Shown here in pieces: positions 16,020-30,383 of a stretch of 64,000 bases of DNA (the stretch's first letter is position 1; each line of letters starts with the position of its first letter). The notes beneath the pieces are model-generated. The model did no database searches. It was not told the DNA's origin and saw nothing but the letters and a program-made list of their open reading frames with translations. The translations under genes and the position numbers were made by a program. Source of the DNA: an uncultured Myxococcales bacterium (GTDB taxonomy: Bacteria; Myxococcota_A; Polyangia; Polyangiales; Polyangiaceae); NCBI GenBank assembly GCA_937872925.1, contig CALMUT010000160.1, positions 1 through 64,000 of the forward strand, read 5' to 3'.

Positions 16020-17969
16020 ATGCGTTCAAATACCCAATCGATTGTTTCAACGGCCATCTTCGTGGGCCTCGGTCTCCTGCTCGCTTCCTGCGACAAGAAG
16101 AAGGACGAACCCACCGGAAAAGCAACTCAGGCGTCGGCGGCAGACGTGGCCGCCGGCAAGCAGATCTTCGAGACCCAGTGCCAAGCCTGTCACAGCATCG
16201 GCGGCGGCGACCGCACCGGCCCGGACCTCAAGGGCGTCAACGAACGCCGTGACCACGCTTGGCTGGTCAAGTGGATGAAGGATCCCATCGAGATGGGCAA
16301 GAGCGATCCCGTCGGTAAGGAGCTGCTCGCAAAGTACAAGAACGTTCCCATGCCCAACCCGGGCTTGGACGACGCCAAGATCGGCCAAGTGCTGGGCTAC
16401 ATCGGCGAGGCGAGCAAGGGCGCCGCAGCCACTCCGGCCGAAGAGAAGTTCGTTGCCCTGGAGGGAGAGACCTTCGAGAAAGCCAAGAAGATCTTCTTCG
16501 ACCGCTGCGCGGGCTGCCACGGCACGCTGCGCGCGGGAGCCACGGGTCCCAACATCCAGCCTGAGCGCACCAAGAAGATCGGTACCGCCGCGCTCAAGGC
16601 GACGCTCACCAACGGCTTGCCCGGTGGCATGCCGCCCTGGGGCAAGCTGGGGATCTTGAGCCCGGAAGAGGTCACCATGATGGCCAACTACGTGCAGATG
16701 GAACCACCAGAACCGCCGCAGCTGCCTCTGGAGAAGATCAAGGAATCCCACAAGGTCATCGTGGCGCCGGATGCCCGGCCCAAGAAACCAGAGACCAAGC
16801 GCAACTGGGAGAACTTCTTCGGGGTCGTGCTACGCGACGCCGGCCAAGTCGCCATCATCGACGGCGACACCAAGGAAAAGGTCGCCATCATCGAGACGGG
16901 CTTCGCGGTGCACATCCTGCGCTCTAGCAAGACCGGTCGCTACTTCTACGCAGTCGGTCGCGACGGCAAGGTCAGCCTGATCGATCTCTGGACGGAGACG
17001 CCCACGCTCGTGGCGCAGGTCAAGGGCTGCTTCGACGCCCGCAGCGTGGATGGGTCCAAGTACAAGGGCTACGAAGACAAGGTCTTGATCCAGGGCTGCT
17101 ACTGGCCCCCGCAATACGTTGTCTACGACGGCCTGACCCTCGAGCCCAAGACCGTGCAGAGCGTGCTCACCCCCGCATATGACAACAAAGAAGAACTGAA
17201 AGAGGTGCGCGTAGCTGCGATTTACGCCAGCCATTTCGAACCCATCTGGGTCGTCAACCTGAAGGAATCCGGCCACGTCGCCATCGTCGACTACAGCAAG
17301 CCGGACTTCCCTATCACCGAAAAAATCCCCGCGGAACGCTTCCTCCACGACGGCGGATTCGACCACACCGGGAACTTCCTGTTGCTCGCGGCCAACATGC
17401 GCAACCAGATCGCCGTCATCGATCTGAAGAGCAAGAAGATGGTCACCAAATTCGAGACCGGCAACAAGCCGCATCCCGGACGCGGCGCAAACTGGAAGGA
17501 TCCGGAGTTTGGTTGGGTCAACGCCACCCCGCACATCGGCGAAGGTCTGATGACCATCTACGGCACGGATCCCAAGGGCAAGCCCGAGCATGCCTGGAAG
17601 GTCGTGCGCAAGGTCAAGCTCGACGGCATGCCCGGCGGCCTGTTCGTGAAGACTCACGAAAAGAGCCCATGGGTGTGGGTCGACGCGCCGCTCGCGAACA
17701 AAGAAGAGAACACCCGGAAGATCTGCGTCTACTCCAAGAAGGAGGGCAAGATCCACAAGTGCTGGAATCCGACGGACCACGGCCGCACCGTGCACTTCGA
17801 GTACAACAAGCAGGGCACGGAAGTCTGGGTCTCCGGCTGGGACAAGAAGGGCGAGATCATCGTCTACAACGACCAGACCCTCGAAGAGGTCAAGCGCATC
17901 AAAGAGGATTGGGTCGTGACGCCCACTGGCAAGTTCAACGTCTACAACACCGCGCACGACGTGTACTGA
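16020..17969 (+). CDS. nirS: Cytochrome cd1 nitrite reductase, lipoprotein form with two heme c modules
   Basis: The enzyme reduces nitrite to nitric oxide in the periplasm using heme d1. The 649-residue protein starts at the ATG at 16020, with GGAGG six bases upstream, and begins with a lipoprotein signal (lipobox LASC, Cys24). Heme c module 1 has CQACH at 54-58. Module 2 has CAGCH at 163-167 and an MPPWG loop and corresponds to the N-terminal domain of classical NirS. The eight-bladed d1 propeller follows (about 250-649). It carries the heme d1 ligand His298 (GFAVHI) and the catalytic His pair His443 (FLHDGG) and His485 (KPHPGRG), spaced 42 apart as in Pseudomonas NirS. It ends TPTGKFNVYNTAHDVY, a family signature. 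The extra cytochrome module may serve as a built-in electron donor. It heads the d1 biosynthesis operon. Confidence 0.95.
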   Translation: MRSNTQSIVSTAIFVGLGLLLASCDKKKDEPTGKATQASAADVAAGKQIFETQCQACHSIGGGDRTGPDLKGVNERRDHAWLVKWMKDPIEMGKSDPVGKELLAKYKNVPMPNPGLDDAKIGQVLGYIGEASKGAAATPAEEKFVALEGETFEKAKKIFFDRCAGCHGTLRAGATGPNIQPERTKKIGTAALKATLTNGLPGGMPPWGKLGILSPEEVTMMANYVQMEPPEPPQLPLEKIKESHKVIVAPDARPKKPETKRNWENFFGVVLRDAGQVAIIDGDTKEKVAIIETGFAVHILRSSKTGRYFYAVGRDGKVSLIDLWTETPTLVAQVKGCFDARSVDGSKYKGYEDKVLIQGCYWPPQYVVYDGLTLEPKTVQSVLTPAYDNKEELKEVRVAAIYASHFEPIWVVNLKESGHVAIVDYSKPDFPITEKIPAERFLHDGGFDHTGNFLLLAANMRNQIAVIDLKSKKMVTKFETGNKPHPGRGANWKDPEFGWVNATPHIGEGLMTIYGTDPKGKPEHAWKVVRKVKLDGMPGGLFVKTHEKSPWVWVDAPLANKEENTRKICVYSKKEGKIHKCWNPTDHGRTVHFEYNKQGTEVWVSGWDKKGEIIVYNDQTLEEVKRIKEDWVVTPTGKFNVYNTAHDVY

Positions 17970-18006
17970 AGACACGGCACATGCCTTGCAATCTTGTCGA
18001 GCTGTT

Positions 18007-19200
18007 ATGCTTCCGGTGACAGAGCTGCTCGAGATTGCCCGGGACGATACATTCCAGAAAGACAGCCGGAACTCGACGCCGCGTTACAGCGCGGCGTCGA
18101 GGCGTTTTGTGCCCGTGGTGATCTGGAACGTCACCGGGCACTGCAACATGACCTGTCCCCATTGTTATGCCTCCGCAGCGCTAAAGCCGCGGCCCGGAGA
18201 GCTCGGCGAGGAGCGCGCGCTCAGTCTGCTTGCCGAGCTGGCGGCCGCTGGGGTGAGCGTGGTGATCTTCAGTGGCGGCGAGCCCTTACTCCGACCCGAC
18301 CTCTTCACCCTGATCGGCCGCGCCACGGAGCTCGGCCTGCACGCTCAGCTGTCCACCAACGGCGTCTTGATCGATGACAAGATCGCGCAAAACTTGCGCG
18401 ATGCCGGCGTCCACTACGTAGGGATCAGTATCGACGGCTTGGCCGCGTACAACGACCCCTACCGCGGCCTCGACGGAGGCTACACCCGGGCGTCCCATGG
18501 CCTCCAGAGCGCCAAATCCGCAGGGCTTCGCACGGGGCTTCGCGTCACCCTGACCCGGAAAAACCTCGACCAGCTGTGGGCGCTGATGGATCACGCCGAG
18601 AGCTTGGCGGTCGACCGCTTCTACGTTTCCCACCTCCTTTATTCGGGTCGCGCCATCCGACTGAATCGAGACGATCTCACCACCGAGGAGTGCCGCGACA
18701 CCCTGCACGCACTATTCGAACGGGCAGATCAAAGCCTCTCGAAGGGCGCCAGCATGCAGCTCGTCACCGGCGGCAACGACTCTGATGGTCCCGCGCTGCT
18801 CGAGTGGGTGCGGACGCGCTACGATGCCGCCGCTGGCGACCGCGTGGAGGCCATGCTGGCGCTGCGTGGGGGCAACTCTGCGGGTGAGAAAATTGTCAAT
18901 ATCGACCACCGCGGCGAGGTGCATCCGGACCAGTTCTGGCGCGCCGCGAGCTTCGGCAACGTGGCCGAGGCGGAGTTTTCTTCCGTGCTCGATCACCCAC
19001 TTCGTTTGCAGTTGCTGGAGCGTGAGCAGCATCTGCAAGGTCGTTGTCAGAGCTGCCGTTTTCGACCGCTCTGCCGGGGCTCCCACCGCGAGCGTGCGCT
19101 TTCCGTACACCGCGATGCCTGGAGCCCAGATCCGGCATGTGTGATGACGGACGCGGAGATCGCGGGCCCCGACGCGCCCGCAAACATGAGAAGCGCATGA
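18007..19200 (+). CDS. nirJ: Heme d1 biosynthesis radical SAM protein NirJ
   Basis: NirJ removes propionate side chains of a siroheme-derived intermediate during heme d1 synthesis. The 397-residue protein (ATG at 18007; a TTG at 17986 is possible) has the radical SAM cluster motif CNMTCPHC (Cys46, Cys50, Cys53), then the SAM-binding strand FSGGEPLLRPD. A C-terminal SPASM-like cluster region carries CQSCRFRPLCRG and a later DPAC, matching a second Fe-S site. It lies 37 bases downstream of nirS and overlaps the next gene, nirF, by ATGA. The context with nirS, nirF and a siroheme decarboxylase makes NirJ much more likely than the related AhbC or AhbD of heme b synthesis. Confidence 0.93.
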   Translation: MLPVTELLEIARDDTFQKDSRNSTPRYSAASRRFVPVVIWNVTGHCNMTCPHCYASAALKPRPGELGEERALSLLAELAAAGVSVVIFSGGEPLLRPDLFTLIGRATELGLHAQLSTNGVLIDDKIAQNLRDAGVHYVGISIDGLAAYNDPYRGLDGGYTRASHGLQSAKSAGLRTGLRVTLTRKNLDQLWALMDHAESLAVDRFYVSHLLYSGRAIRLNRDDLTTEECRDTLHALFERADQSLSKGASMQLVTGGNDSDGPALLEWVRTRYDAAAGDRVEAMLALRGGNSAGEKIVNIDHRGEVHPDQFWRAASFGNVAEAEFSSVLDHPLRLQLLEREQHLQGRCQSCRFRPLCRGSHRERALSVHRDAWSPDPACVMTDAEIAGPDAPANMRSA

Positions 19201-20462
19201 AATACCTGCTACCTAGTCTGTTGCTCTGCCCGCTGCTGCTCGGCGGCTGCGACAAGAAATCTGAGGCACCGGCGCCGGCAGCGGAAGTGTCCGCGATCAC
19301 ATCACCCTCCGGGGAAACCGACGCAATACAGCGCATTGCCGGCGGTGTCGGATCCCGAGTCTTTGTCGTCGAACGCGAGCGCGAGGCACTGGCGGTTTAC
19401 GATTTGGACTCCCGCACGCTGCTCCCCCAGCGCATCGAAGGGCTCGGGAATATGCGACACGCCGTGATGGCGTTTTCGCCAGACCTGCGCTTTGGCTACG
19501 TCGCAACTCGCAAGGGCAAGCTCTCGCGCATTGATCTGGAGACCTTGAAGAAGGCCGGCGAAGTACAGGTGTCGGAGAACTCCATCGACATTGCCATCAC
19601 CCAGGACGGACGTTTCATCGCGACAGCGGAATACATCCCGGGTGGCGTCACCTTGCTCGACGCCAAAACGCTCAAAGTAGCCGCCAAATTGCCAGCCAAC
19701 ATCGAACGCGGCGGCAAGAAGACCGATAGCCGCGTGACGGGCATCGTCGACGCACCGGGAAACCGTCTGGTTTGTGTGTTGATTGAAGGTGCGGAGATCT
19801 GGGTCATCGACGCCTCGAAGGCCACCCCCAGCATCGAGCATCGCATCAAGACCAGCACGGACATGCCCTACGACGCCATGATCACGCCGAACGGCCGCCA
19901 CTACGTGGTCGGGCACATGGGCTCGAAGCACGTCAGTGTCCTGGACGTTGCCCACCCGGAGCGAGGCGTGCGCGAAGTGTCGTTGGAAGACCCCAGCGCC
20001 AACACCAAGCGCTCCACACCAGTGAAACTGCCGCACATGGCGTCTTGGGCAGTGGCACGTTCCCGCGTTTTCGTGCCGCTAGTAGGAGAAGCCCGACTCG
20101 TCGTGCTGCGCGAAAACGACTTCACCTTCGAACGCTCTGTCAAACTCCGAGGGCATCCGGTCTACACGGTCGCTTCGCCGACGGGCGCCGAACTGTGGGT
20201 CAGTTTCTCCGGGGAGGCGGATGACGCTTTCATTCAAGTTATCGACACAGAGACGCTAGAACCGAAGCAGGAAATCCGCGTCGGAAAGCGCATCTATCAC
20301 ATGGACTTCTTGCCGCGCGGTTCCCACGTGCTCGTCAGCGCCAACCGCGACAACAAACTCGCTCTCGTGGACGCCCGCCACTACGAAGTGGTGGACGAAG
20401 AAACCTTGCCTTCCCCCTCCGGCGTGTTTGGGGCCTGGCGTGCATTCAGGATCGGACTATGA
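19197..20462 (+). CDS. nirF: Heme d1 biosynthesis protein NirF, lipoprotein
   Basis: This 421-residue protein starts at the ATG overlapping the nirJ stop. The lipoprotein signal has lipobox LLGGC. The remainder is a beta-propeller related to the d1 domain of NirS. Matches to NirF include VAYDLDS-like blade ends, PYDAMITPNGRHYVVGHMG, LPHMASWAVA, GHPVYTVASPTGAELWVSF and IYHMDFLPRG. There is no heme c motif, which separates it from NirS and NirN. NirF acts in the periplasm late in heme d1 synthesis, converting or handing over the dihydro-d1 precursor; the Pseudomonas NirF is also membrane-anchored. It is coupled by ATGA to the next gene. Confidence 0.92.
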   Translation: MKYLLPSLLLCPLLLGGCDKKSEAPAPAAEVSAITSPSGETDAIQRIAGGVGSRVFVVEREREALAVYDLDSRTLLPQRIEGLGNMRHAVMAFSPDLRFGYVATRKGKLSRIDLETLKKAGEVQVSENSIDIAITQDGRFIATAEYIPGGVTLLDAKTLKVAAKLPANIERGGKKTDSRVTGIVDAPGNRLVCVLIEGAEIWVIDASKATPSIEHRIKTSTDMPYDAMITPNGRHYVVGHMGSKHVSVLDVAHPERGVREVSLEDPSANTKRSTPVKLPHMASWAVARSRVFVPLVGEARLVVLRENDFTFERSVKLRGHPVYTVASPTGAELWVSFSGEADDAFIQVIDTETLEPKQEIRVGKRIYHMDFLPRGSHVLVSANRDNKLALVDARHYEVVDEETLPSPSGVFGAWRAFRIGL

Positions 20463-21508
20463 ATCTAGAAGTCGTCGCTACGGCCGCCGAAACCCACGGC
20501 GTCTTGCCCGCGGGGCAGGCCAATGCCCTCGCCCACGCGGTACAACATGCCTTTCCTATCACTGCGGAGCCTTTTGGAGCGCTCGCAGACAGCTTGGGGC
20601 TGCCGCGAGATGCCGTGCTGGCGCAGCTGAAGCACTGGAGTGACAGCGGCCTGTTGCGGGAAATCTCAGCGGTGCTCGAGGGTGCATGCCTCGGCTACGA
20701 CAGCGCGCTGGTTGCCGGCATGATCCGGCCAGCCGATGTCGAGAGCGTTGCCGCGGTGATCAATGCGCATCCCACCGTGACGCATAACTACATCCGCAGG
20801 CACGACTACAACCTGTGGTTCACCATCGCAGTGCCCACGGATCAAGGGCTGGAGCATCATCTGCAGCTTCTGGCTCGGGAAGCAGACGTCGACGCTTTCT
20901 ATCCTCTGCGCCGCACCTCCACGTTCAAGGTGGGAGTGAACTTTGACTTGCTCACGCGTAAGAGCCGAACCGAACAGGTCGAACTCTCCACGCCAGTTCC
21001 CATCACGGTATCCGATCGCGACAAGGTTCTGTTTCGAGCCCTGCAGTCTCCCCTGCACATCACCGAGCGACCCTTCGCAGAGAGTGCGAAGAAGTTCGGC
21101 GTGACTGAGGACGAACTCATCGCGCACGGGCAGCGGCATGCCGGGGGAGCGGTGCGACGCTTCGTCGGAACGCTCCGCCATCGAAAACTCGGCGTGCGCG
21201 GCAACGGAATGGGCGTATGGAACGTGCCGGAAAGCGAGCACGCTCACCTCGGCGCCATCCTGGCCCACGCGCCGGAGGTTAGCCACTGTTACGCCCGCAA
21301 TTCGATCCCGGGATTCGAGTATACCCTGTACAGCATGCTGCACGGACCAAGCGAGGACGCCTGCCTACGGATCGCCGAGCGCCTGGCGGGAGAAATTGCG
21401 GTCAGCGACTACCTAGTGTTGTTCAGCACCGAAGAGCTGAAGAAGTGCCGGCTGCGCTATTTCCTGCCAGAGCTCGACGCTTGGTATTCCGCGCGGAACT
21501 CGGCCTGA
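20459..21508 (+). CDS. nirDL: Siroheme decarboxylase, fused two-domain NirDL type
   Basis: The gene encodes 349 residues in two tandem AsnC/Lrp-like units. Unit 1 (about 20-165) has a winged-helix stretch (FGALADSLGLPRDAVLAQLKHW), LLREISAVL and the catalytic-region signature HNYIRRHDYNLWFT. Unit 2 (about 180-345) repeats this with FAESAKKFGVTEDELI, VRRFVGTLRHRKLG and VSHCYARNSIPGFEYTLYSML. These proteins (NirD, NirL, NirG, NirH or AhbA/AhbB) are enzymes, not regulators: they decarboxylate siroheme to didecarboxysiroheme. A fused NirDL is known in Paracoccus, whereas Pseudomonas has four separate genes. Here one gene appears to provide the whole activity. ATGA overlap with nirF. Confidence 0.93.
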   Translation: MNLEVVATAAETHGVLPAGQANALAHAVQHAFPITAEPFGALADSLGLPRDAVLAQLKHWSDSGLLREISAVLEGACLGYDSALVAGMIRPADVESVAAVINAHPTVTHNYIRRHDYNLWFTIAVPTDQGLEHHLQLLAREADVDAFYPLRRTSTFKVGVNFDLLTRKSRTEQVELSTPVPITVSDRDKVLFRALQSPLHITERPFAESAKKFGVTEDELIAHGQRHAGGAVRRFVGTLRHRKLGVRGNGMGVWNVPESEHAHLGAILAHAPEVSHCYARNSIPGFEYTLYSMLHGPSEDACLRIAERLAGEIAVSDYLVLFSTEELKKCRLRYFLPELDAWYSARNSA

Positions 21509-21568
21509 AAAGCCAGGAATTGCTTCGGATCGATTTTGGCGCAGCGCGCCACGGAGGCGCCGGCTAGC

Positions 21569-22489
21569 ATGGCAGCCGCTGTGAGACGCATCTTGGACAG
21601 ACGCGCCCTTTTGACCGGGGCCCTCGCCGTATCCGGCCAGGCAGCGCTGGGCTGCAAACGGCGCACGCCAGCCGATGCACAACCCTTTGTGCTCGTGCTT
21701 TCACCGGGGCATGGCAAAAACGCAGAAGCCGTTCGAAATCTCCAAGCCGAGCTGACACGACGCGCCGGCATTTCCTTCGAACTCCGAACGGGCGCCACCG
21801 GGGACGAGGCCGTGCGCATGGCGACGGCAGCCGGCACGGACGCGGCGCTGCTGACCATCTTCGAGTACTTGTTCGCAAGGCAGCTCTGGAAAGTGGAAGC
21901 CGTGCTGCGCATTCTTCGCAACGGCGGAAAGCGCTCGTACCATGGCGAAGTTGTTGCGCTGCGCGACGGTGCGACCAAGTCCGTGTCGGATCTGAATGGA
22001 CAAAGCATCGCTTATGCGGATCGCTACTCCACGACCGGATTTCTCTTGGCAGCGAAACTGCTCAAGGATCAGGGAGTCGACGCGAAACCCATGTTCACCG
22101 GCAGCCACGAAGCCGCGCTGGCAGCCGTCCAGCAGGGCAAGGCAGCAGCAGCAGCGACGTTCGCAGGCGCAGCAGCCGGCATCCCGGAACTCCACGCGAT
22201 CGCAAAGACGAACTCGGTTTCCAACGAGCCAGTCTTCGTCCGTGCGGATCTAGAACCGGCGCGGCGTGCGCTACTGACCCGGACACTGGCTGCCACCGCT
22301 GCCAGCGACGTCGGCAAGCGGGCTCTGGCAGAGATTGCCGGGATCGACGGCTTCGAAGCCGCGACGGATCAAGACTACACCCAGGCGTTCGACCTGGTCA
22401 CCCAGGCGGGGCACGCCGTCCAAGAACTGGTCCCTCGGGGCTGGGTCCTGGCGAACGAAAAGGCGCGCCCCCCCGAACTCACTCCCTGA
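21569..22489 (+). CDS. PhnD-like periplasmic substrate-binding protein
   Basis: The protein has 306 residues from the ATG at 21569. The signal has a twin-arginine-like DRRALLTGALAVSG followed by a lipobox-like ALGC. The mature part matches the PhnD/SsuA-type fold of phosphonate, phosphite or nitrate/sulfonate binding proteins, with LLTIFEYLFA, VVALRDGATKSVSDLNGQS and YSTTGFLLAAKLLKDQGVD. No ABC permease or ATPase genes adjoin it, so it may be an orphan receptor rather than an importer component. It follows nirDL by 60 bases on the same strand and shares the downstream hairpin, so co-expression with the nir genes is likely. Ligand unknown. Confidence 0.78.
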   Translation: MAAAVRRILDRRALLTGALAVSGQAALGCKRRTPADAQPFVLVLSPGHGKNAEAVRNLQAELTRRAGISFELRTGATGDEAVRMATAAGTDAALLTIFEYLFARQLWKVEAVLRILRNGGKRSYHGEVVALRDGATKSVSDLNGQSIAYADRYSTTGFLLAAKLLKDQGVDAKPMFTGSHEAALAAVQQGKAAAAATFAGAAAGIPELHAIAKTNSVSNEPVFVRADLEPARRALLTRTLAATAASDVGKRALAEIAGIDGFEAATDQDYTQAFDLVTQAGHAVQELVPRGWVLANEKARPPELTP

Positions 22490-22536: not shown

Positions 22537-23265
22537 TCAGCCGAACGCGGCGAAGCGCAGGCCGGCCATGACGGCGGCGGCGAGACTGCGCCGGCGCGCT
22601 TCGGATTCGATGGCGGTGGCGCGGAAGCGTAGCCCGACGTGATGACGCTGGAGCAGATTCGCGAGTTCCGGGTGATCGTCCTGGGGTCGCGACAGGAGGT
22701 CGTACAGCCGAGTGCGAACGTTGTAGGCGGATTCCGCCCAGATCACGCGCTCCGTCTTGTCTTTGCCGCCGGCAACCAATAGGAGCACGCCCGCGCGATC
22801 CGGCGCCGCTTCCACGTGCTCCAAGTCGAGCAACTCGTCGTTGCCCCAAGTAACCGCGTGCAGCTTGTCGTAGTGAGGAAAGGTGTCGGGGTGTTTCGCC
22901 GGAAGTCCGAGAATGCCGGCAATCAGGTCGAGCGCGGAGACGACCCCACACACTTTCCCGGCGTCATCGACGACGACGGCGCGATGCACACCACGCTGCA
23001 CGATCATCTGTGCGGCGTCTTCGAGACTCGCCCCGGACTCGATGGTAACCGCAGGGGTTGTCATTCGGTCTGCTAGGGTCTGCTCCGGCGCCGCGGCCAA
23101 GAGATCCCGAAACGACGCCACGCCCAGCGGCCGCATCTCAGCGTCCACGACCGGCACCGCGGTGATACCGAGCGCTCGGATATAGCCCAACCCCTCCGCA
23201 GCTTTGTCGCCAGCACGCATGCTGAAAAGTTCCGGGTTCATTACTTCGCGAACTGTCTTTGCCAT
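22537..23265 (-). CDS. CBS-pair protein with C-terminal extension
   Basis: The protein has 242 residues. Two CBS motifs (about 8-60 and 65-120) contain ITAVPVVDAEMRPLGVASFRDL and HRAVVVDDAGKVCGVVSALDL, forming one adenosine-nucleotide-binding Bateman module. The remaining ~120 residues are less conserved, with KDKTERVIWAESAYNVRTRLYDLL and an Arg/Ala-rich end. They resemble the extension of a CBS/Usp-associated stress protein, but I cannot assign it. It opens the stress island next to the nir operon and is divergent from a universal stress protein gene (240-base gap). It probably senses AMP/ATP or SAM-like ligands in the cytoplasm. Confidence 0.85.
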   Translation of the reverse strand: MAKTVREVMNPELFSMRAGDKAAEGLGYIRALGITAVPVVDAEMRPLGVASFRDLLAAAPEQTLADRMTTPAVTIESGASLEDAAQMIVQRGVHRAVVVDDAGKVCGVVSALDLIAGILGLPAKHPDTFPHYDKLHAVTWGNDELLDLEHVEAAPDRAGVLLLVAGGKDKTERVIWAESAYNVRTRLYDLLSRPQDDHPELANLLQRHHVGLRFRATAIESEARRRSLAAAVMAGLRFAAFG

Positions 23266-23506
23266 GAGGGGCTGCGTCGCAAATCCCGTTCCAGGGGGGA
23301 TCTGCCCGCGAGCACTCCGCCGACGTGCAAGCCCTGCGGTCCGGCCGTGCTGCCGCGCAGCACTTGCGCCAGGCTGTGGAGGCGCGGGTGCTCATCGGCC
23401 GAGACCGTCCCAGTTCCGGGGCAGATCCCGGGACACTAGAATGACGGCAAGGGATCTGCTGAGGTGGACCATTCGGGGTCCGCAATCCAGAGCGAGGGAG
23501 CCAATC

Positions 23507-24364
23507 ATGACCGAGAAATCAATCCTCTTTGCTACCGACTTCGAGTCCGCGGCCGCGCAAGCCCAGGATGAGCTCGTCCGCGTTGCAAAGGCCTTCCACG
23601 CCTCTGTGTACGTGATGACGGCCTTGCCGTCGGCGCTGCGCACTTGGGTTTCGTCGGGACTGCTGGAGCGCCAAGCACTGGAACGCGTCGAGGCGTGGGT
23701 ACAAGAACTCGAGGCCGCCGGCGTGCGCGCCTCCGCGCTTCCCGTCGTGCGCGGCAACGCCGCCGAGGCCATTGCCGAAACCGCGGAGCGGACGCACATC
23801 GACCTGATCTTCGTGGGGGCGAGCAACAAGGGCACCCTCGAGCGCCTCATGATCGGTTCGACTGCAGAGGCGGTTGCTCGCTGTGCGTTTCAGCCCGTGT
23901 GGATGAGCCGACCGCGACAAGACACCATCGAGCGGGTGGTCGTGGGCGTCGACGGCTCGGACGCGTCGCGAGTGGCGATTGAAGACGGCTACGCGATCGC
24001 CGACCGCACCGGCGCGATGGTCTCCCTGGTCGCGGCGATTGAAAACCCGGACCTCAATCCTCTGGGCATGACGGTCGCTGAAGAGGAAGCAGAAAACTCG
24101 AAGTTTCGCGCAGCTCACGAGGACGAAATCCGCAAGTTTGTGCAGCGGGTCGCGCCGGCACATCCGGACGATGTGCATTTCTTCTGGGGAGCCCCTTCGG
24201 AGGTCCTCGCAACCTTTGCCCGGGATCAGCAGGCGGACGTGCTCGTGATCGGACGCTGGGGCGAGGGTGGGATCCGGCGCGTATTGCTTGGGGGCACCGC
24301 CGAGCGCACGCTGCGCGTCTGCCCGTGTTCCTTGGTGATTACCGGAGCGCCACGGTCGGGCTAA
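23507..24364 (+). CDS. Tandem universal stress protein (two UspA domains)
   Basis: This 285-residue cytoplasmic protein starts at the ATG at 23507 behind GAGGGAG; the longer upstream frame is not Usp-like. Domain 1 (about 1-140) begins SILFATDFESAA and has VGASNKGTLERLMIGSTAE. Domain 2 (about 143-285) begins RVVVGVDGSDASRVA and has IGRWGEGGIRRVLLGGTAERT. Both keep the G-2x-G-9x-G ATP-binding pattern, in domain 2 ending GG rather than GS. Such tandem Usps are induced by hypoxia, starvation or redox stress. Its stop codon abuts the end of the convergent CBS gene with no gap. Confidence 0.92.
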   Translation: MTEKSILFATDFESAAAQAQDELVRVAKAFHASVYVMTALPSALRTWVSSGLLERQALERVEAWVQELEAAGVRASALPVVRGNAAEAIAETAERTHIDLIFVGASNKGTLERLMIGSTAEAVARCAFQPVWMSRPRQDTIERVVVGVDGSDASRVAIEDGYAIADRTGAMVSLVAAIENPDLNPLGMTVAEEEAENSKFRAAHEDEIRKFVQRVAPAHPDDVHFFWGAPSEVLATFARDQQADVLVIGRWGEGGIRRVLLGGTAERTLRVCPCSLVITGAPRSG

Positions 24365-24775
24365 TCAAAGCTTGTCTTGAGCCGCGCGCAGCACGTCCAC
24401 GTAGCTGACGATGCCCACGAGCTCGTCGCTCTCCGGGTCAACGACCGGGACAGCACCGACCTTGTGATCCAGCATCAGGTCCACGAGGTCGGAAAGCTCC
24501 ATTTCGGCATCCACGGAGAGCACGTCCGAACTCATCACGGATCCAATCGGTTGGAGGAGTCGCTGAGCGATTTCCTCGGGATTCTCCAGCTCGACGATGG
24601 TGGGCGCGAGAAACGCGCGGACATCCCGGTCGCTGATGATTCCGACCAGTGTCTTGCCGTCGACAACCGGCAGGTGCCGAACATCAAGTTCGAACAGCAC
24701 GGAGATCACATCCCGGATCGCGGCCGCTGCATCGACCGTCGTTGGGTCCTTCGTCATGATTTCTTCGACAACCAT
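24365..24775 (-). CDS. Small CBS-pair protein
   Basis: With the ATG at 24775 the protein is 136 residues and consists almost entirely of two CBS motifs (MVVEEIMTKDPTTVDAAAA, RHLPVVDGKTLVGIISDRDVRA; then VMSSDVLSVDAEMELSDLV, GAVPVVDPESDELVGIVSYVDVL). The longer open frame upstream to 25240 is antisense to the next gene and not CBS-like. A stand-alone Bateman module of this size usually binds adenylates and signals energy state. It is divergent from the zinc-ribbon CBS gene with 212 bases between them that contain regulatory-looking sequence. Confidence 0.92.
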   Translation of the reverse strand: MVVEEIMTKDPTTVDAAAAIRDVISVLFELDVRHLPVVDGKTLVGIISDRDVRAFLAPTIVELENPEEIAQRLLQPIGSVMSSDVLSVDAEMELSDLVDLMLDHKVGAVPVVDPESDELVGIVSYVDVLRAAQDKL

Positions 24776-24824
24776 TCCTCGTCTCCTAGCGTGATGCGAC
24801 TGGCATTTGCAACGCCCATGCCGC

Positions 24825-24841
24825 TGGTGCAGAGCTTGCAA
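24825..24841 (+). promoter_or_regulatory. Possible sigma-54 type promoter
   Basis: TGGTGCAGAGCTTGCAA has GG and GC separated by exactly ten bases with TTGCA at the -12 element, but the -24 element is imperfect (TGGTGC instead of TGGCAC). It faces the zinc-ribbon CBS operon. Such matches occur often by chance in GC-rich DNA. Confidence 0.22.
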
Positions 24842-24950
24842 ACGACTGGGGTCGTGGATGCGAGACTGCATAGCTTTGACGCGCCCCCGACGGAAATGGG
24901 CATCGTCGGCGAGGGCACGAAAGCAGGTTTTGCACCGCTTAGACCTGCTG

Positions 24951-24965
24951 GCGCAAAACTTGCGC
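24951..24965. promoter_or_regulatory. Short perfect inverted repeat upstream of the CBS-Usp operon
   Basis: GCGCAAAACTTGCGC is a 6-bp perfect inverted repeat with a 3-base centre, 22 bases upstream of the GTG start of the zinc-ribbon CBS gene. It could be an operator in the divergent gap; no regulator is assigned. Confidence 0.3.
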
Positions 24966-24987
24966 AACTGCGCAGACGGGGGCGGCT

Positions 24988-25779
24988 GTGAGCAAAAAGG
25001 AGGGCAACCTGCTACCGATCCAGGTCCGACGCACGGTGCTGCCGGACGGCGAACCGGGCACGGAACTGAGCGTATTCTGCGCGCCGCGCAACGGATCCGT
25101 ATCCCTGGACGCTTGCCTGACTTGCACCGAATGCGGCGGCCTCCACCTCGACCCGAGCGAGCGCAATACGTTTTTGATGTGCCGGGGCACGGCCAGGTCG
25201 TCTTTGCCTCCGGAGCAACCGAGCGCTGCCGAGGCAACACCCACCGTGGACCCGAGGGTGGCCACGGTCATGACGGCAAACGTAGTCTGCGTCAGTCCGG
25301 ATCTATCCCTGGATGCGCTCACGCGTTTGATGTTGGAACGGGGCATCAGCGGCGTCCCGGTCGTGGATGCGGACGGTGTCCCGGTTGGGGTGGTTTCGAA
25401 GACTGACCTGCTCCGACGAGACCGACGCGACCAACTAGAGCGGGATCTGGACCACGGCCCCTTGGCCGCGGGGGGATACGAATTCGACCTGGGTCCTCGC
25501 TTCCAGATGACCCGCCTGGCAGAGGAAGTCGTCGAGGACGTGATGATGCCCATGGCGTTGACCATTCCGGAGAATGCACCAATCTCCCGCGCCGCGGCGC
25601 TTATGGCGCACGAAGGGGTGCACCGCTTGGTCGTGGTCGCCGCCCGCTCGGGTGCGGTCGTTGGCATCCTATCTGCGATCGACTTGCTGCGGTGGATGGC
25701 CAGACAGCACGGCTATGCGGTACCGCTGGCGTCGGAACGAGAACCAAGCGAACAAGACCCCAATCAGGACACCACATGA
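24988..25779 (+). CDS. CBS-pair protein with N-terminal zinc-ribbon-like domain
   Basis: From a GTG start this is a 263-residue protein. The first ~75 residues carry five cysteines arranged as SVFC, ACLTCTEC and LMCRG, which looks like a metal-binding ribbon. The CBS pair occupies about 95-245 (VMTANVVCVSPDLSLDAL, ISGVPVVDADGVPVGVVSKTDLL, VHRLVVVAARSGAVVGILSAIDLLRW). The Cys cluster could make nucleotide sensing redox- or zinc-dependent, which is inference. Its stop overlaps the next ATG (ATGA), so it is translationally coupled to a universal stress protein. Confidence 0.85.
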   Translation: MSKKEGNLLPIQVRRTVLPDGEPGTELSVFCAPRNGSVSLDACLTCTECGGLHLDPSERNTFLMCRGTARSSLPPEQPSAAEATPTVDPRVATVMTANVVCVSPDLSLDALTRLMLERGISGVPVVDADGVPVGVVSKTDLLRRDRRDQLERDLDHGPLAAGGYEFDLGPRFQMTRLAEEVVEDVMMPMALTIPENAPISRAAALMAHEGVHRLVVVAARSGAVVGILSAIDLLRWMARQHGYAVPLASEREPSEQDPNQDTT

Positions 25780-26270
25780 ATACAAAACCAAAAGTGCTGT
25801 GTCCTATCGACTGTTCGCCGTGTTCGGCGAACGCGCTGCGCACGGCAACCACCTGGACAGCTCGTCTCGGGGCCGAGCTCCATGTCTTGCTTGCGTACCA
25901 AGTGCCACACTACATCCAGCCGAGCCTGTTGATCTGGATGGGCGCGGGCCCCCGGCCGCTGTGGGAGCTGGCCGAAGAGCAGGCCACCCACCAGCTTCGT
26001 CAGTTCTTGGAAGAAAATGCCCTGGATCTATCGCTGGCGGACGTGCGTTTGCTCCACGGTGAGCCGGCCATCGCCATCATTACCGTCGCAGAACGGGACT
26101 CCATCGACTGGATCATCATGGGCACGCACGGGCGGTCGGGTGCCAAGCGCCTAGCCTTGGGCAGTGTTGCTGAGCGGGTCGTTCGGCGCGCCCCGTGCCC
26201 CGTCATTGTCGTACCGACTCGCAATTCGGAATCCAAATCCAAACCCCTTATCGAGCCACGGCTCTTGTGA
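25776..26270 (+). CDS. Universal stress protein (single domain)
   Basis: This 164-residue protein starts at the ATG overlapping the CBS gene stop. It opens KVLCPIDCSPCSANAL and ends with the ATP-binding signature MGTHGRSGAKRLALGSVAERVVRRAPCPVIVV (G-2x-G-9x-G-S), typical of the ATP-binding UspFG/MJ0577-type branch. A CPIDCSPC cluster at the N terminus, in place of the usual P-x-D-x-S segment, adds two nearby cysteines. A short polar tail follows. The gene is 19 bases upstream of the next Usp gene, forming a CBS-Usp-Usp operon. Confidence 0.92.
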   Translation: MNTKPKVLCPIDCSPCSANALRTATTWTARLGAELHVLLAYQVPHYIQPSLLIWMGAGPRPLWELAEEQATHQLRQFLEENALDLSLADVRLLHGEPAIAIITVAERDSIDWIIMGTHGRSGAKRLALGSVAERVVRRAPCPVIVVPTRNSESKSKPLIEPRLL

Positions 26271-26289
26271 ACGAAGTTGGAGCAGTGAG

Positions 26290-26748
26290 ATGCAAGAAGT
26301 GAAACGAATCTTGGTCCCCGTCGATTTCTCGGGATGTTCCCGCTTGGCTCTCTCGCGCGCGGCGGAGCTGGCGAAGGCGTTCGGGGCGACGATCGACATC
26401 CTCCACGTGTGGGAAGCCCCAGCGTTCGTCGCACCTGAAGCAATGGTGGGAGTCTCTGGCGGCACCCAAACCCTTGCGGATCTCGCCCGGGAGCATGCCG
26501 CAACCGCAATGGAGGAGTTTGTTTCCGCAGCTCAAGACGAGGGCGTCCCCGTGGGGGAGACCATCGTCAAGCAGGGCGACCCGGCGAAGGTCATCGTCGA
26601 AACCGCCGACAGCGGGAACTACGACTTGGTTGCCCTCGGCACCCACGGCCGCACCGGGCTCTCGCACCTATTGCTCGGCAGCGTGGCCGAGAAGGTCGTA
26701 CGGCGCTCACGCCGCCCAGTGCTCAGTGTTCGAGAAAAAGCCAAGTAG
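26290..26748 (+). CDS. Universal stress protein (single domain)
   Basis: The product is a textbook 152-residue UspA-fold protein: RILVPVDFSGCSRLALSRAAELA at the start, IDILHVWE on strand 2, and LGTHGRTGLSHLLLGSVAEKVVRRSRRPVLSV at the end, with the full G-2x-G-9x-GS nucleotide motif. It most resembles the single-domain Usps induced by anaerobiosis or stasis. It is third in the CBS-Usp-Usp operon and lies 68 bases upstream of the globin-coupled kinase on the same strand, so co-transcription is possible. Confidence 0.93.
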   Translation: MQEVKRILVPVDFSGCSRLALSRAAELAKAFGATIDILHVWEAPAFVAPEAMVGVSGGTQTLADLAREHAATAMEEFVSAAQDEGVPVGETIVKQGDPAKVIVETADSGNYDLVALGTHGRTGLSHLLLGSVAEKVVRRSRRPVLSVREKAK

Positions 26749-26816
26749 TTTCGGGTCTCTAGAAACCGAATGGCAAGCATGGTAGCGCTGTCTCCCGTCC
26801 GAGACCCGCGTCCCCC

Positions 26817-27977
26817 ATGCAGCTCGACCGCACAGCCTTTGAAAGCCTCGAAAGCTACGTCGGGTTTTCTGCGCAAGACCTCGAGAGCTTGCGCAAATTC
26901 GCGCCCGTAGTGGAGCCCCGTCTTGGCACGGTGGTTGATGACTTCTACGACGCGATCAGCGCGCACCCGGACGCGCGCCGCGCCATTTCCGGTGGCGTCG
27001 CGCAAGTTGAGCGGCTCAAGGTCAGCCTGCGCGACTGGCTTCGCTCCATGCTGACCGAAGAACGTACGGCGGCCTATCTGACGAAGAACTCGCGCATCGG
27101 CCGGGTCCACGTGCGCATCGAGCTGCCGCAGCACTATATGTTCACGGCGATGAATCGCATCAGGAGTCGCCTGCTGGAGACAGCATTCGCCGAGTTGCCC
27201 CATAGCGACGTCGCCGACGTAGCGCTGGCGCTGGACCGAGCAATCGACCTTGAGCTGGCGATCATGCTGGACACCTACCGCGAGGACATGGACCAGCGCG
27301 TGCGCGCGTCAGCCCGTCTGGCCACCATCGGTCAGCTGGCCGCCAGCATCGGGCATGAGCTACGAAACCCCCTGGGTGTGATCGAGTCCTCGCTCTATCT
27401 CCTTCAGCAGGCGACACGGAGCGAGGAACGCGACGTCGCCGTGTTCGACAAGCACACGGCGCGCATCGCGGAGCAGTCTCGGACTTGCCTCCAAATCGTG
27501 AATAACCTCCTTGACCTGGCCCGGGACCGTCCGCCACAGCTGACGCGCCACGCGCTGCTGGACACGGTGCGTCGGGGCATAGAACTCAGCGGATTCGCCA
27601 ACCTTGCGCCCACCCTCGACGTGCCCGCAGACCTGCTGATCGATGCCGACCCAACCGACCTTGCTCAGGTGGTGGCCAACTTGGTGCGAAACGCTGCTCA
27701 AGCACAAGGCGTCGAGCCAAAGATATGGATCCGTGCGGGCGAAACTTCCGGCGGAGTATTCTTCGAGGTGCGTGATGCGGGTCCCGGCATTCCGCACCAA
27801 GACCACGCACGGGTCTTCGACGCGTTGTTCACGACCAAACCTCGAGGCACGGGCCTTGGGCTTGCCCTGTGTCGACGCGTCCTCGAAGCCCACCGCGGGG
27901 ATATCTCGCTCCTGGAAAGCGACGCCGGCGCCCATTTTCGTGTCTTCCTACCCTCGCGAGAAGCGCAAAGTGACTAG
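26817..27977 (+). CDS. Globin-coupled histidine kinase
   Basis: The kinase has 386 residues and no transmembrane helix, so it is cytoplasmic. The N-terminal ~150 residues form a sensor globin (protoglobin-like) domain. It has a B10-type tyrosine in DDFYDAI (Tyr44) and the proximal histidine in RIGRVHVRIELPQHYM (His98), matching the GCS pattern. A HisKA domain follows, with GQLAASIGHELRNPLG (phospho-acceptor His180). The HATPase domain has NLVRNAAQA, DAGPGIP and GTGLGLALCRRVL. Heme-globin sensors bind O2, NO or CO. Its stop overlaps the GTG of a receiver gene, giving a kinase-receiver pair. It lies 4.3 kb from the end of the nir operon, so O2 or NO is a reasonable ligand guess. Confidence 0.92.
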   Translation: MQLDRTAFESLESYVGFSAQDLESLRKFAPVVEPRLGTVVDDFYDAISAHPDARRAISGGVAQVERLKVSLRDWLRSMLTEERTAAYLTKNSRIGRVHVRIELPQHYMFTAMNRIRSRLLETAFAELPHSDVADVALALDRAIDLELAIMLDTYREDMDQRVRASARLATIGQLAASIGHELRNPLGVIESSLYLLQQATRSEERDVAVFDKHTARIAEQSRTCLQIVNNLLDLARDRPPQLTRHALLDTVRRGIELSGFANLAPTLDVPADLLIDADPTDLAQVVANLVRNAAQAQGVEPKIWIRAGETSGGVFFEVRDAGPGIPHQDHARVFDALFTTKPRGTGLGLALCRRVLEAHRGDISLLESDAGAHFRVFLPSREAQSD

Positions 27978-28362
27978 ACTTCGAACACCCGGCGCGTCCG
28001 GCAAGACGCTGAGCGTGCTCATTGTCGAGGACGATCCCGCCTTGTCCGAGAACCTCAGCGAGATCCTCCGCGGCTTCGGCTTCCAGGTGAGCGCCGTTTC
28101 AAGCGCGGACCGGGCGCTGGAGTTTTTGGAACAAGAGCACGCGGATTGCTTGTTGACGGACGTCAAACTGCCAGGCCAGGGGGGCATCGCCATGCTCGAG
28201 GAGTTGCGCCGCCGCCACGTGACCGTTCCTGCGATTGTCATGAGCGGTTTCCTGGAACCGGACCATCTTCGTCGCGCCACAGAGCTTGGCGTCATCGATG
28301 TGCAGTCTAAGCCAGTGAATCTGGAGCGCCTGCACGACGTACTGGACCGCCTTACATCATGA
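27970..28362 (+). CDS. Stand-alone response regulator receiver (CheY-like)
   Basis: The protein has 130 residues from a GTG inside the end of the kinase gene. The receiver fold is complete: VLIVEDDPALSENL (acidic pocket), the phospho-acceptor Asp64 in LLTDVKLPGQGG, the conserved Thr/Ser position in IVMSGF, and QSKPVN with the conserved Lys. There is no output domain, so it probably relays the phosphate to another protein rather than binding DNA. Its stop overlaps the start of the hybrid kinase gene (ATGA). The three signalling genes are thus translationally coupled and probably form one phosphorelay. Confidence 0.9.
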   Translation: MTRLRTPGASGKTLSVLIVEDDPALSENLSEILRGFGFQVSAVSSADRALEFLEQEHADCLLTDVKLPGQGGIAMLEELRRRHVTVPAIVMSGFLEPDHLRRATELGVIDVQSKPVNLERLHDVLDRLTS

Positions 28363-29765
28363 AACGCGCGACGGTCCTAGTCGTCGACGACAACGTCGAG
28401 CTCGCCGACAATCTACGCGACGTGCTGGCAGGATTGGACGGCTACGAAATTGAGTGCGTGGTGGCCACGAGCGGCAAAGAGGCCGAAGAACAATGCGCCA
28501 ATCTGACTCATGCTCTCGATTTGGCTTTTGTGGATCTGCATCTACCTGACGTCGACGGGTTGGACCTAGTCCGTCGCTTGCGATCGCGCTGTCGGCATTG
28601 TGAAGTCGTGTTGATCACCGGAGATGCCACGATCGAGAGCGCCGTGGCTGCGGTCCGCGAAGGCGCATTCGCATTCGTGCTCAAGCCGTTTTCGCCCCAG
28701 GACTTGCTGCAGACCGCCAACAACGCTTTGACTCGCGCGCTGCTGGTGCGTGAGCGCGAGGCGCTGCGCTTCGAACTCGAGGAATCTGAGCGGCGGCATC
28801 GCGACGTCGTGGAAGCCATCCCAGCGTTCGTCCTGGCCCTGGATCATTCCGATCGCATTGTGCTCTGGAACCGCCAGCTCGAAGCGATCACGGGGAAGTC
28901 CCGGCGTGAAATGCTGGGTCAGCCCGGAAGGGATTTGGTGGGCGGCGGAGGGGATCGCAACCTTCCCGGAGCCAGTGGCACGTCGCGGCTTGTGCACTGG
29001 CAACTGGCCGAGCTGGACAGCACGGCGGCACCTATCACCTACGCGATTGGTACGGACGTCACAGACGAGCGCAGCATGCAGCGCCGAACACTGCGGGCGG
29101 AGCGTCTCGCTGCCGTCGGCACCCTGGCAGCTGGCTTGGCCCACGAAGTCCGCAACCCGTTGAACTCCGCAACTCTGCAACTGCAAGTCCTGCGGCGCCG
29201 GATTGAGAAGGGCAACACCGCGCCGGCGGGACTGATCCCGGTGGTCGAAATCGTACACGACGAAATCCGGCGCCTGGAGCGCTTGGTCAATGACTTCCTC
29301 GCGTTTGCCCGTCCCAGTCCCCTGACCGTCGCGCAAGCGGACCTCGACGGGCTGGTCCAATCCGTGCTGGAGCAAGTGCGCCCCGAGCTCCGGCAGGCCC
29401 AAATCCGACTGCGACCCGAACTTCGGGGTGAGGTCCAGGTGGAGGTGGATCCCGAACGACTCCGCCAAGTGCTCCTAAACCTAATGCGCAATGCGCTGGA
29501 AGCCATGAGCGAAGGCGGGGCCTTGACGGTACGTACGCTACCGACAGACCCCGAAGGGTTCGCCGGCGTCGAGATCGAGGACAACGGCCCCGGCGTTTCC
29601 GAGGACGCCCCGATCTTCGATGCATTCTACACGACGAAGGAAGCAGGCACGGGACTGGGGCTCGCCATTGTTCATCGCATCATCGAAGAACATGGCGGCC
29701 AAATCAGCGTGGAGTCCAAGCCGGGCAGAACGGTATTCCGACTGCGCCTGCCCTGCGCCCGCTGA
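28359..29765 (+). CDS. REC-PAS-histidine kinase
   Basis: This 468-residue cytoplasmic protein starts with a receiver (about 1-125, VLVVDDNVELADNL, Asp59 in LAFVDLHLPDVDG, VLKPFSP). A PAS domain follows (about 145-240, AIPAFVLALDHSDRIVLWN). The kinase core has GTLAAGLAHEVRNPLNS (phospho-acceptor His262), NLMRNALEAM, IEDNGPGV and GTGLGLAIVHRIIEEHGG. The order REC-PAS-HisKA-HATPase is that of a response-regulator kinase downstream of another kinase. It follows the single receiver by ATGA overlap. A PAS heme is possible but not shown. No DNA-binding output is encoded in the cluster. Confidence 0.93.
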   Translation: MKRATVLVVDDNVELADNLRDVLAGLDGYEIECVVATSGKEAEEQCANLTHALDLAFVDLHLPDVDGLDLVRRLRSRCRHCEVVLITGDATIESAVAAVREGAFAFVLKPFSPQDLLQTANNALTRALLVREREALRFELEESERRHRDVVEAIPAFVLALDHSDRIVLWNRQLEAITGKSRREMLGQPGRDLVGGGGDRNLPGASGTSRLVHWQLAELDSTAAPITYAIGTDVTDERSMQRRTLRAERLAAVGTLAAGLAHEVRNPLNSATLQLQVLRRRIEKGNTAPAGLIPVVEIVHDEIRRLERLVNDFLAFARPSPLTVAQADLDGLVQSVLEQVRPELRQAQIRLRPELRGEVQVEVDPERLRQVLLNLMRNALEAMSEGGALTVRTLPTDPEGFAGVEIEDNGPGVSEDAPIFDAFYTTKEAGTGLGLAIVHRIIEEHGGQISVESKPGRTVFRLRLPCAR

Positions 29766-29845
29766 AACGGCGCAATTTATTCCGGAGCAAACGAAGCCAA
29801 TGTTGATTCTTGCCGGCCCGCACACAAAGACACCGCGAGAGGGGC

Positions 29846-29862
29846 GGGGCATGACTCCTGCA
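29846..29862 (+). promoter_or_regulatory. Possible sigma-54 type promoter of the last Usp gene
   Basis: The segment GGGGCATGACTCCTGCA has GG and GC ten bases apart, a GGCAT -24 element and a CTGCA -12 element, and sits 24 bases upstream of the ATG at 29886. The fit is moderate, so this is only a candidate. Confidence 0.25.
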
Positions 29863-29885
29863 GGAAACCTTCGTTCGGGAGTTTC

Positions 29886-30383
29886 ATGACCCTTGCCACT
29901 CACATCTTGGTCGCGACGGACTTCTCCGACAGCGCCCACGAAGCGCTGATCGCGGCACTCCGCATCGCCGAACGAATCGATGCGTCCATCGAACTGCTGC
30001 ATATCTGGGAGCCATCCGGCGTCATTCCCATAGAAACACTGCTTTCCGAAGTGGGCGCGACGGCCGCGCCGAGAAGCCTTGGAGAGATCGCCCGCCGAGA
30101 AGCGCAGCTTCGCCTGCAGCAGCTTGCTGCCAGCGTCGAACGTCCACCGAACGTAAAGATCACGTCCCGGGTGGAAGTCGGGCGGCCCGACGAACTCATC
30201 GTCGCACTCGTCGAGCAAGGGGTCTGCGACATGGTCGTCATGGGGACCCATGGGCGCCGCGGCGTCGGGCGGCTGATGATGGGGAGCGTGGCGGAACGCG
30301 TGGTGCGGAACGCCCCCTGCCCCGTGCTCACGGTGCGCTACGAGTCCCCCGAGCACCAAAGCATGCCGCCGGTAGCGCCCTGA
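29886..30383 (+). CDS. Universal stress protein (single domain)
   Basis: This 165-residue Usp begins HILVATDFSDSAHEALIAAL, has IELLHIWE, and ends with MGTHGRRGVGRLMMGSVAERVVRNAPCPVLTV, which carries the ATP-binding G-2x-G-9x-GS motif. A 10-residue polar tail follows. It is separated from the REC-PAS kinase by 120 bases and ends the stress island. It is the fourth Usp gene and the fifth Usp domain in the region. A hairpin follows it. Confidence 0.93.
   Translation: MTLATHILVATDFSDSAHEALIAALRIAERIDASIELLHIWEPSGVIPIETLLSEVGATAAPRSLGEIARREAQLRLQQLAASVERPPNVKITSRVEVGRPDELIVALVEQGVCDMVVMGTHGRRGVGRLMMGSVAERVVRNAPCPVLTVRYESPEHQSMPPVAP

Follow-up and report, generated by a model that had tools for sequence, protein, structure and literature searches.

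The siroheme decarboxylase and NirJ of heme d1 biosynthesis are cytoplasmic, the keto groups are made in the periplasm by NirF with NirC, a cooperation that was shown in 2026, and NirN finishes the process (PMC13168839). Pold et al. (2024; PMC10999283) placed the NirS of Myxococcota in clade 1f with those of other phyla, and a 2025 survey found that complete denitrifiers make up 26% of the denitrifying Myxococcota (PMC12569097). The presence of nirS in Myxococcota, complete denitrification in this phylum, and the C1-C2-NirS with eNOR are already published (PMC10999283, PMC12569097, PMC8756737), and the four-gene nir operon described here is a new example of a gene set already known in Myxococcota. 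The suggestion of the initial annotation that nirS would be notable in this lineage is unsupported, since both the gene and the complete pathway had been reported.

The window, a stretch of 64,000 nucleotides, is contig C160 of a Polyangiaceae-family MAG of 9.39 Mb, 377 contigs and 95% completeness (G000), whose gene content was taken from family searches. At 16020-21508 on the plus strand, nirS, nirJ, nirF and nirDL form one tight operon, with a gap of 37 bases between nirS and nirJ and 4-base overlaps (ATGA) at nirJ/nirF and nirF/nirDL. The features of the locus are as follows.

16020..17969, plus strand: nirS (PF02239, 352 bits; two c-type cytochrome domains; Paracoccus NirS, 509 bits)
about 16140-16440, plus strand: C1 cytochrome c domain of NirS
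about 16450-16750, plus strand: C2 cytochrome c domain of NirS
16803-17951, plus strand: heme d1 propeller of NirS (PF02239)
18007..19200, plus strand: nirJ, radical SAM protein (TIGR04051, 369 bits; operon position conserved)
19197..20462, plus strand: nirF, lipoprotein propeller of the d1 pathway (PF02239, 205 bits; PDB NirF, 249 bits)
20459..21508, plus strand: nirDL, fused siroheme decarboxylase (NF040708, 187 bits, and NF040707, 204 bits; PDB 4ch7)
21569..22489, plus strand: PhnD-like lipoprotein, substrate-binding protein (PF12974, 132 bits)
26817..27977, plus strand: protoglobin-domain histidine kinase (PF11563, 117 bits; HisKA, HATPase_c)

The HMM and PDB matches confirmed the genes for NirS, NirJ, NirF and a fused NirDL where the initial annotation had located them, and its reading of a nearly minimal heme d1 pathway together with NirS in a myxobacterial genome is upheld. 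The range of 16020-22489 that it gave holds for the four nir genes to 21508, but its final part, 21569-22489, is the non-conserved PhnD-like gene, which has no counterpart in the nir loci of relatives, was rejected as an operon member and probably lies outside the nir system. An FNR-type box upstream of nirS was also rejected, as it is one site with two mismatches and none is present in relatives. Directly after the operon, positions 22537-30383 are densely occupied by universal stress/CBS-domain proteins, the protoglobin histidine kinase and a hybrid kinase, and the protoglobin kinase is a possible candidate for an O2/NO sensor.

For the radical SAM protein the best NCBIfam model was rSAM_NirJ, whose score lies below the 515-bit cut-off; the rank of this model and the gene context nevertheless support its assignment as NirJ. 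It carries the CX3CX2C motif as CNMTCPHC and a C-terminal Cys-rich SPASM-like part. NirF is a d1-type propeller without a c domain and matches the NirF structure 6tv2 far better than NirN (249 vs 78 bits). In NirDL an AhbA-like and an AhbB-like half are fused, both models score above their cut-offs, and 321 residues align with the NirD-like structure 4ch7 at 219 bits.

Very probably this is a functional denitrification operon, in which NirDL, NirJ and NirF make the heme d1 of a nitrite-reducing NirS; its activity and the electron route are what we infer from the genes. NirDL would decarboxylate siroheme in the cytoplasm, NirJ would remove two propionates by radical chemistry, and NirF, membrane-anchored in the periplasm, would make the keto groups, after which the finished heme d1 would be inserted into NirS. 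The latter is predicted to be a membrane-tethered periplasmic protein with two c hemes and heme d1, which would convert nitrite to NO, and electrons probably enter via the extra C1 heme domain as a built-in donor. The genes for NirC and NirN are absent here. C1 suggests itself as a candidate, either for the missing small cytochrome or for a built-in donor, and it may stand in for the free NirC.

The host is probably a full denitrifier, as judged from its gene content: nitrate would enter via NapA, an eNOR on contig C213 would reduce NO, and a NosZ on C221 would act on the N2O. Four heme-copper oxidases are encoded in the genome, and the one on C213, with an adjoining cupredoxin subunit, contains GHQSQQVN, in which Gln replaces the active-site Tyr of oxidases. 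Such a Gln is the mark of eNOR (PMC8756737), and by this feature, assigned from the motif on the Tyr-bearing helix and not on the alignment of PMC8756737, the protein is classed as an eNOR-type NO reductase. NapA is encoded near this eNOR and scores 910 bits. The NosZ on C221 is of the Tat type, matches solved NosZ at 751 bits with the copper-site residues visible, and is followed by nosR-, nosD- and nosF-like genes. The initial annotation had listed nirE, nirC, nirN and a NO reductase as missing from the window; when the 95% complete assembly was searched, NirN and a free NirC were indeed not found, but the NO reductase is present elsewhere in the form of the eNOR and a CobA-HemD fusion (SUMT) provides for the NirE step. 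Precorrin-2 dehydrogenase (TIGR01470) was also not found in this assembly and is present in relatives. A further heme-copper oxidase homologue on C275 (L049:5434-6903) lacks the active-site Tyr (GHVIVN), occurs with a CuA-type subunit and a Sco protein, and may be another type of NO reductase. A second large membrane protein was seen in both eNOR clusters (L050:5081-6490 and L038:4605-6125), and the copies scanned had no Pfam or NCBIfam match.

One alternative, which we regard as unlikely, is that the operon is real but serves NO/nitrite detoxification or low-oxygen signalling instead of respiratory denitrification. The lipoprotein form of NirS and the cluster of universal stress, CBS and protoglobin kinase genes downstream would fit such a role, but in sister genera the universal stress/CBS block is far from nir, the genome itself also has NapA, eNOR and a nosZ cluster, and in G074 the eNOR cluster (L038) lies about 180 bases from nirS in divergent orientation.

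The NirS gene starts at the ATG at 16020 and ends at 17969, and its protein carries the lipobox LLLASCDKK. It has two CXXCH c-heme domains in a C1-C2-d1 layout, of which the initial annotation had overlooked the extra N-terminal one, and its domain order, in which an additional cytochrome c domain precedes the heme c domain, identifies it as a C1-C2-NirS fusion. Alignment to 1dy7 showed that the axial His200 and the catalytic His345 and His388 (P. pantotrophus numbering) are all kept, in agreement with the earlier claim that the catalytic residues are visible, and the heme c motif CAGCH (H69) and the distal Met106 are also present. The AlphaFold model matches cd1 structures. A role of the first gene as NirN (dihydro-heme d1 dehydrogenase) or as a non-catalytic cytochrome, a placement outside NirS of the kind that the initial annotation had considered, is highly improbable: NirN has the same c-d1 layout and gives a 160-bit match, but Paracoccus NirS matches at 509 bits, the three histidines are in place, and 26 NirS chains rank above NirN in the structure search with the model. 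Assignment of C1 as NirC by sequence was tried and rejected, for its PDB matches were generic cytochromes c and included no chain named NirC.

Proteins with a d1 domain were found in 13 of 318 genomes of the class, and a looser whole-protein search gave 15 of 318, two of them by the c domain alone. The window-type NirS occurs in G000, G218, G219, G220, G221, G185 and G074; within the class, NirJ above 350 bits and NirF are confined to genomes with this NirS, and NirDL has the same distribution except for G074, where the contig runs out right after nirF. The full order nirS-nirJ-nirF-nirDL recurs in ten loci, five from Polyangiaceae and five from Acidobacteriota, and is interrupted by contig ends in two others; given this recurrence, the arrangement is not due to chance. 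A quick tree built from 85 sequences places the NirS of the window among other Polyangiaceae, with Acidobacteriota as the next group at weak support (83). G212, a genome of the same genus without the operon, has one contig with blocks that correspond to both flanks, and the contig of the window therefore looks correctly binned. A clean empty site was not found in G212, where the blocks are about 20 kb apart and inverted. A binning error that brought in the operon of another organism might be suspected from the 377 contigs and from the absence of the operon in G212, but against the homologous blocks for both flanks and the Polyangiaceae as nearest NirS relatives we give it very little credence.

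The genome encodes a second diheme cd1 protein on C342 (L044:1722-3662), with relatives in G212, G218 and G219 (loci L014, L020 and L026). In this paralog His200, His345 and His388 are replaced by Asp, Phe and Tyr, so that it does not have the residues that define NirS. The three relatives have lost these histidines as well, and across all four proteins A301, F444, T554 and G555 are also altered, as is R391 in three of the four. Both c hemes are kept in the group, the cd1 fold is retained in the structure predicted for the G212 copy, and the pairwise dN/dS of the d1 domain is about 0.15-0.25, near that of the active copies; the emptied paralog is under purifying selection. In the 85-sequence tree these four proteins form the sister group of the Polyangiaceae NirS (support 95), and among 79 further loci only two histidine-less cd1 proteins were found, both from these same paralog genomes. 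The surrounding genes differ in every genome. G212 (98% complete) has only the emptied copy, and NirF, NirDL and a strong NirJ were not found there. We lean towards the view that after duplication the emptied copy was uncoupled from heme d1 and became a diheme cytochrome with a new, d1-free function, for example in electron transfer or in binding another ligand. About 5 kb from this gene on C342, multiheme cytochromes with 12, 12 and 27 CXXCH motifs and a NapC/NirT-type protein are encoded (L044:8953-16264). A limited literature search, which is no proof of absence, found no paper on such an emptied paralog.

Intact cd1 proteins also occur apart from the d1 genes. A branch of 38 diheme cd1 sequences comes from Gemmatimonadota, Acidimicrobiia, other Myxococcota, gammaproteobacteria and others, and nirJ, nirF and nirDL were found near none of its loci. 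An intact cd1 without a NirF-like match or an above-cut-off siroheme decarboxylase was found in five genomes of the class (G067, G070, G135, G144 and G222) and in 17 of the 35 other genomes searched (intact diheme loci in such genomes include L115-L119, L122, L126-L128, L132, L134, L139, L140, L142, L145, L149 and L155, among others). Some gammaproteobacteria of the branch do have the d1 pathway, beside another, canonical NirS. Divergent genes or gaps in the MAGs are possible reasons for the absence, but its repetition is hard to attribute to gaps alone; in a wider but weaker form of the uncoupling view, one branch of intact-pocket diheme cd1 proteins would reside in genomes that lack the known d1 pathway.

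With this operon the Polyangiaceae gain a member that is probably a complete denitrifier. Its unusual parts, a diheme lipoprotein NirS and an eNOR, are missed by standard marker sets or called cytochrome oxidase, and the cd1 proteins in genomes without d1 genes, like the emptied paralog, indicate that a sequence-based nirS match does not always mean nitrite reduction. The four genes are a very small natural set for heme d1, which bears on whether C1 can replace NirC and whether NirN is dispensable. As compared to the nirSMCFDLGHJEN cluster of Pseudomonas aeruginosa, the operon shares NirS, NirF, NirJ and siroheme decarboxylase, and the same chemistry is expected, but it has no nirM, separate nirC, nirN, nirE or nirGH, its nirD and nirL are fused, and its NirS has a second c domain and a lipid anchor. 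The NirD-like siroheme decarboxylase of PDB 4ch7 and 4czc is also a fused two-half protein, though the similarity is moderate at the score given above. With NirS clade 1f of Pold et al. the likeness is in phylum and enzyme, and no operon order or diheme layout was found in the description of that clade. The C1-C2-NirS of Chloroflexi has the same layout, with an extra cytochrome c domain before the c and d1 domains, and is likewise accompanied by an eNOR with the active-site Gln; those copies are isolated, without denitrification genes in their neighbourhood (PMC8756737), whereas in the window the d1 genes are in the same operon, and the Chloroflexota sequences fall on a different branch of the tree from that of the window.
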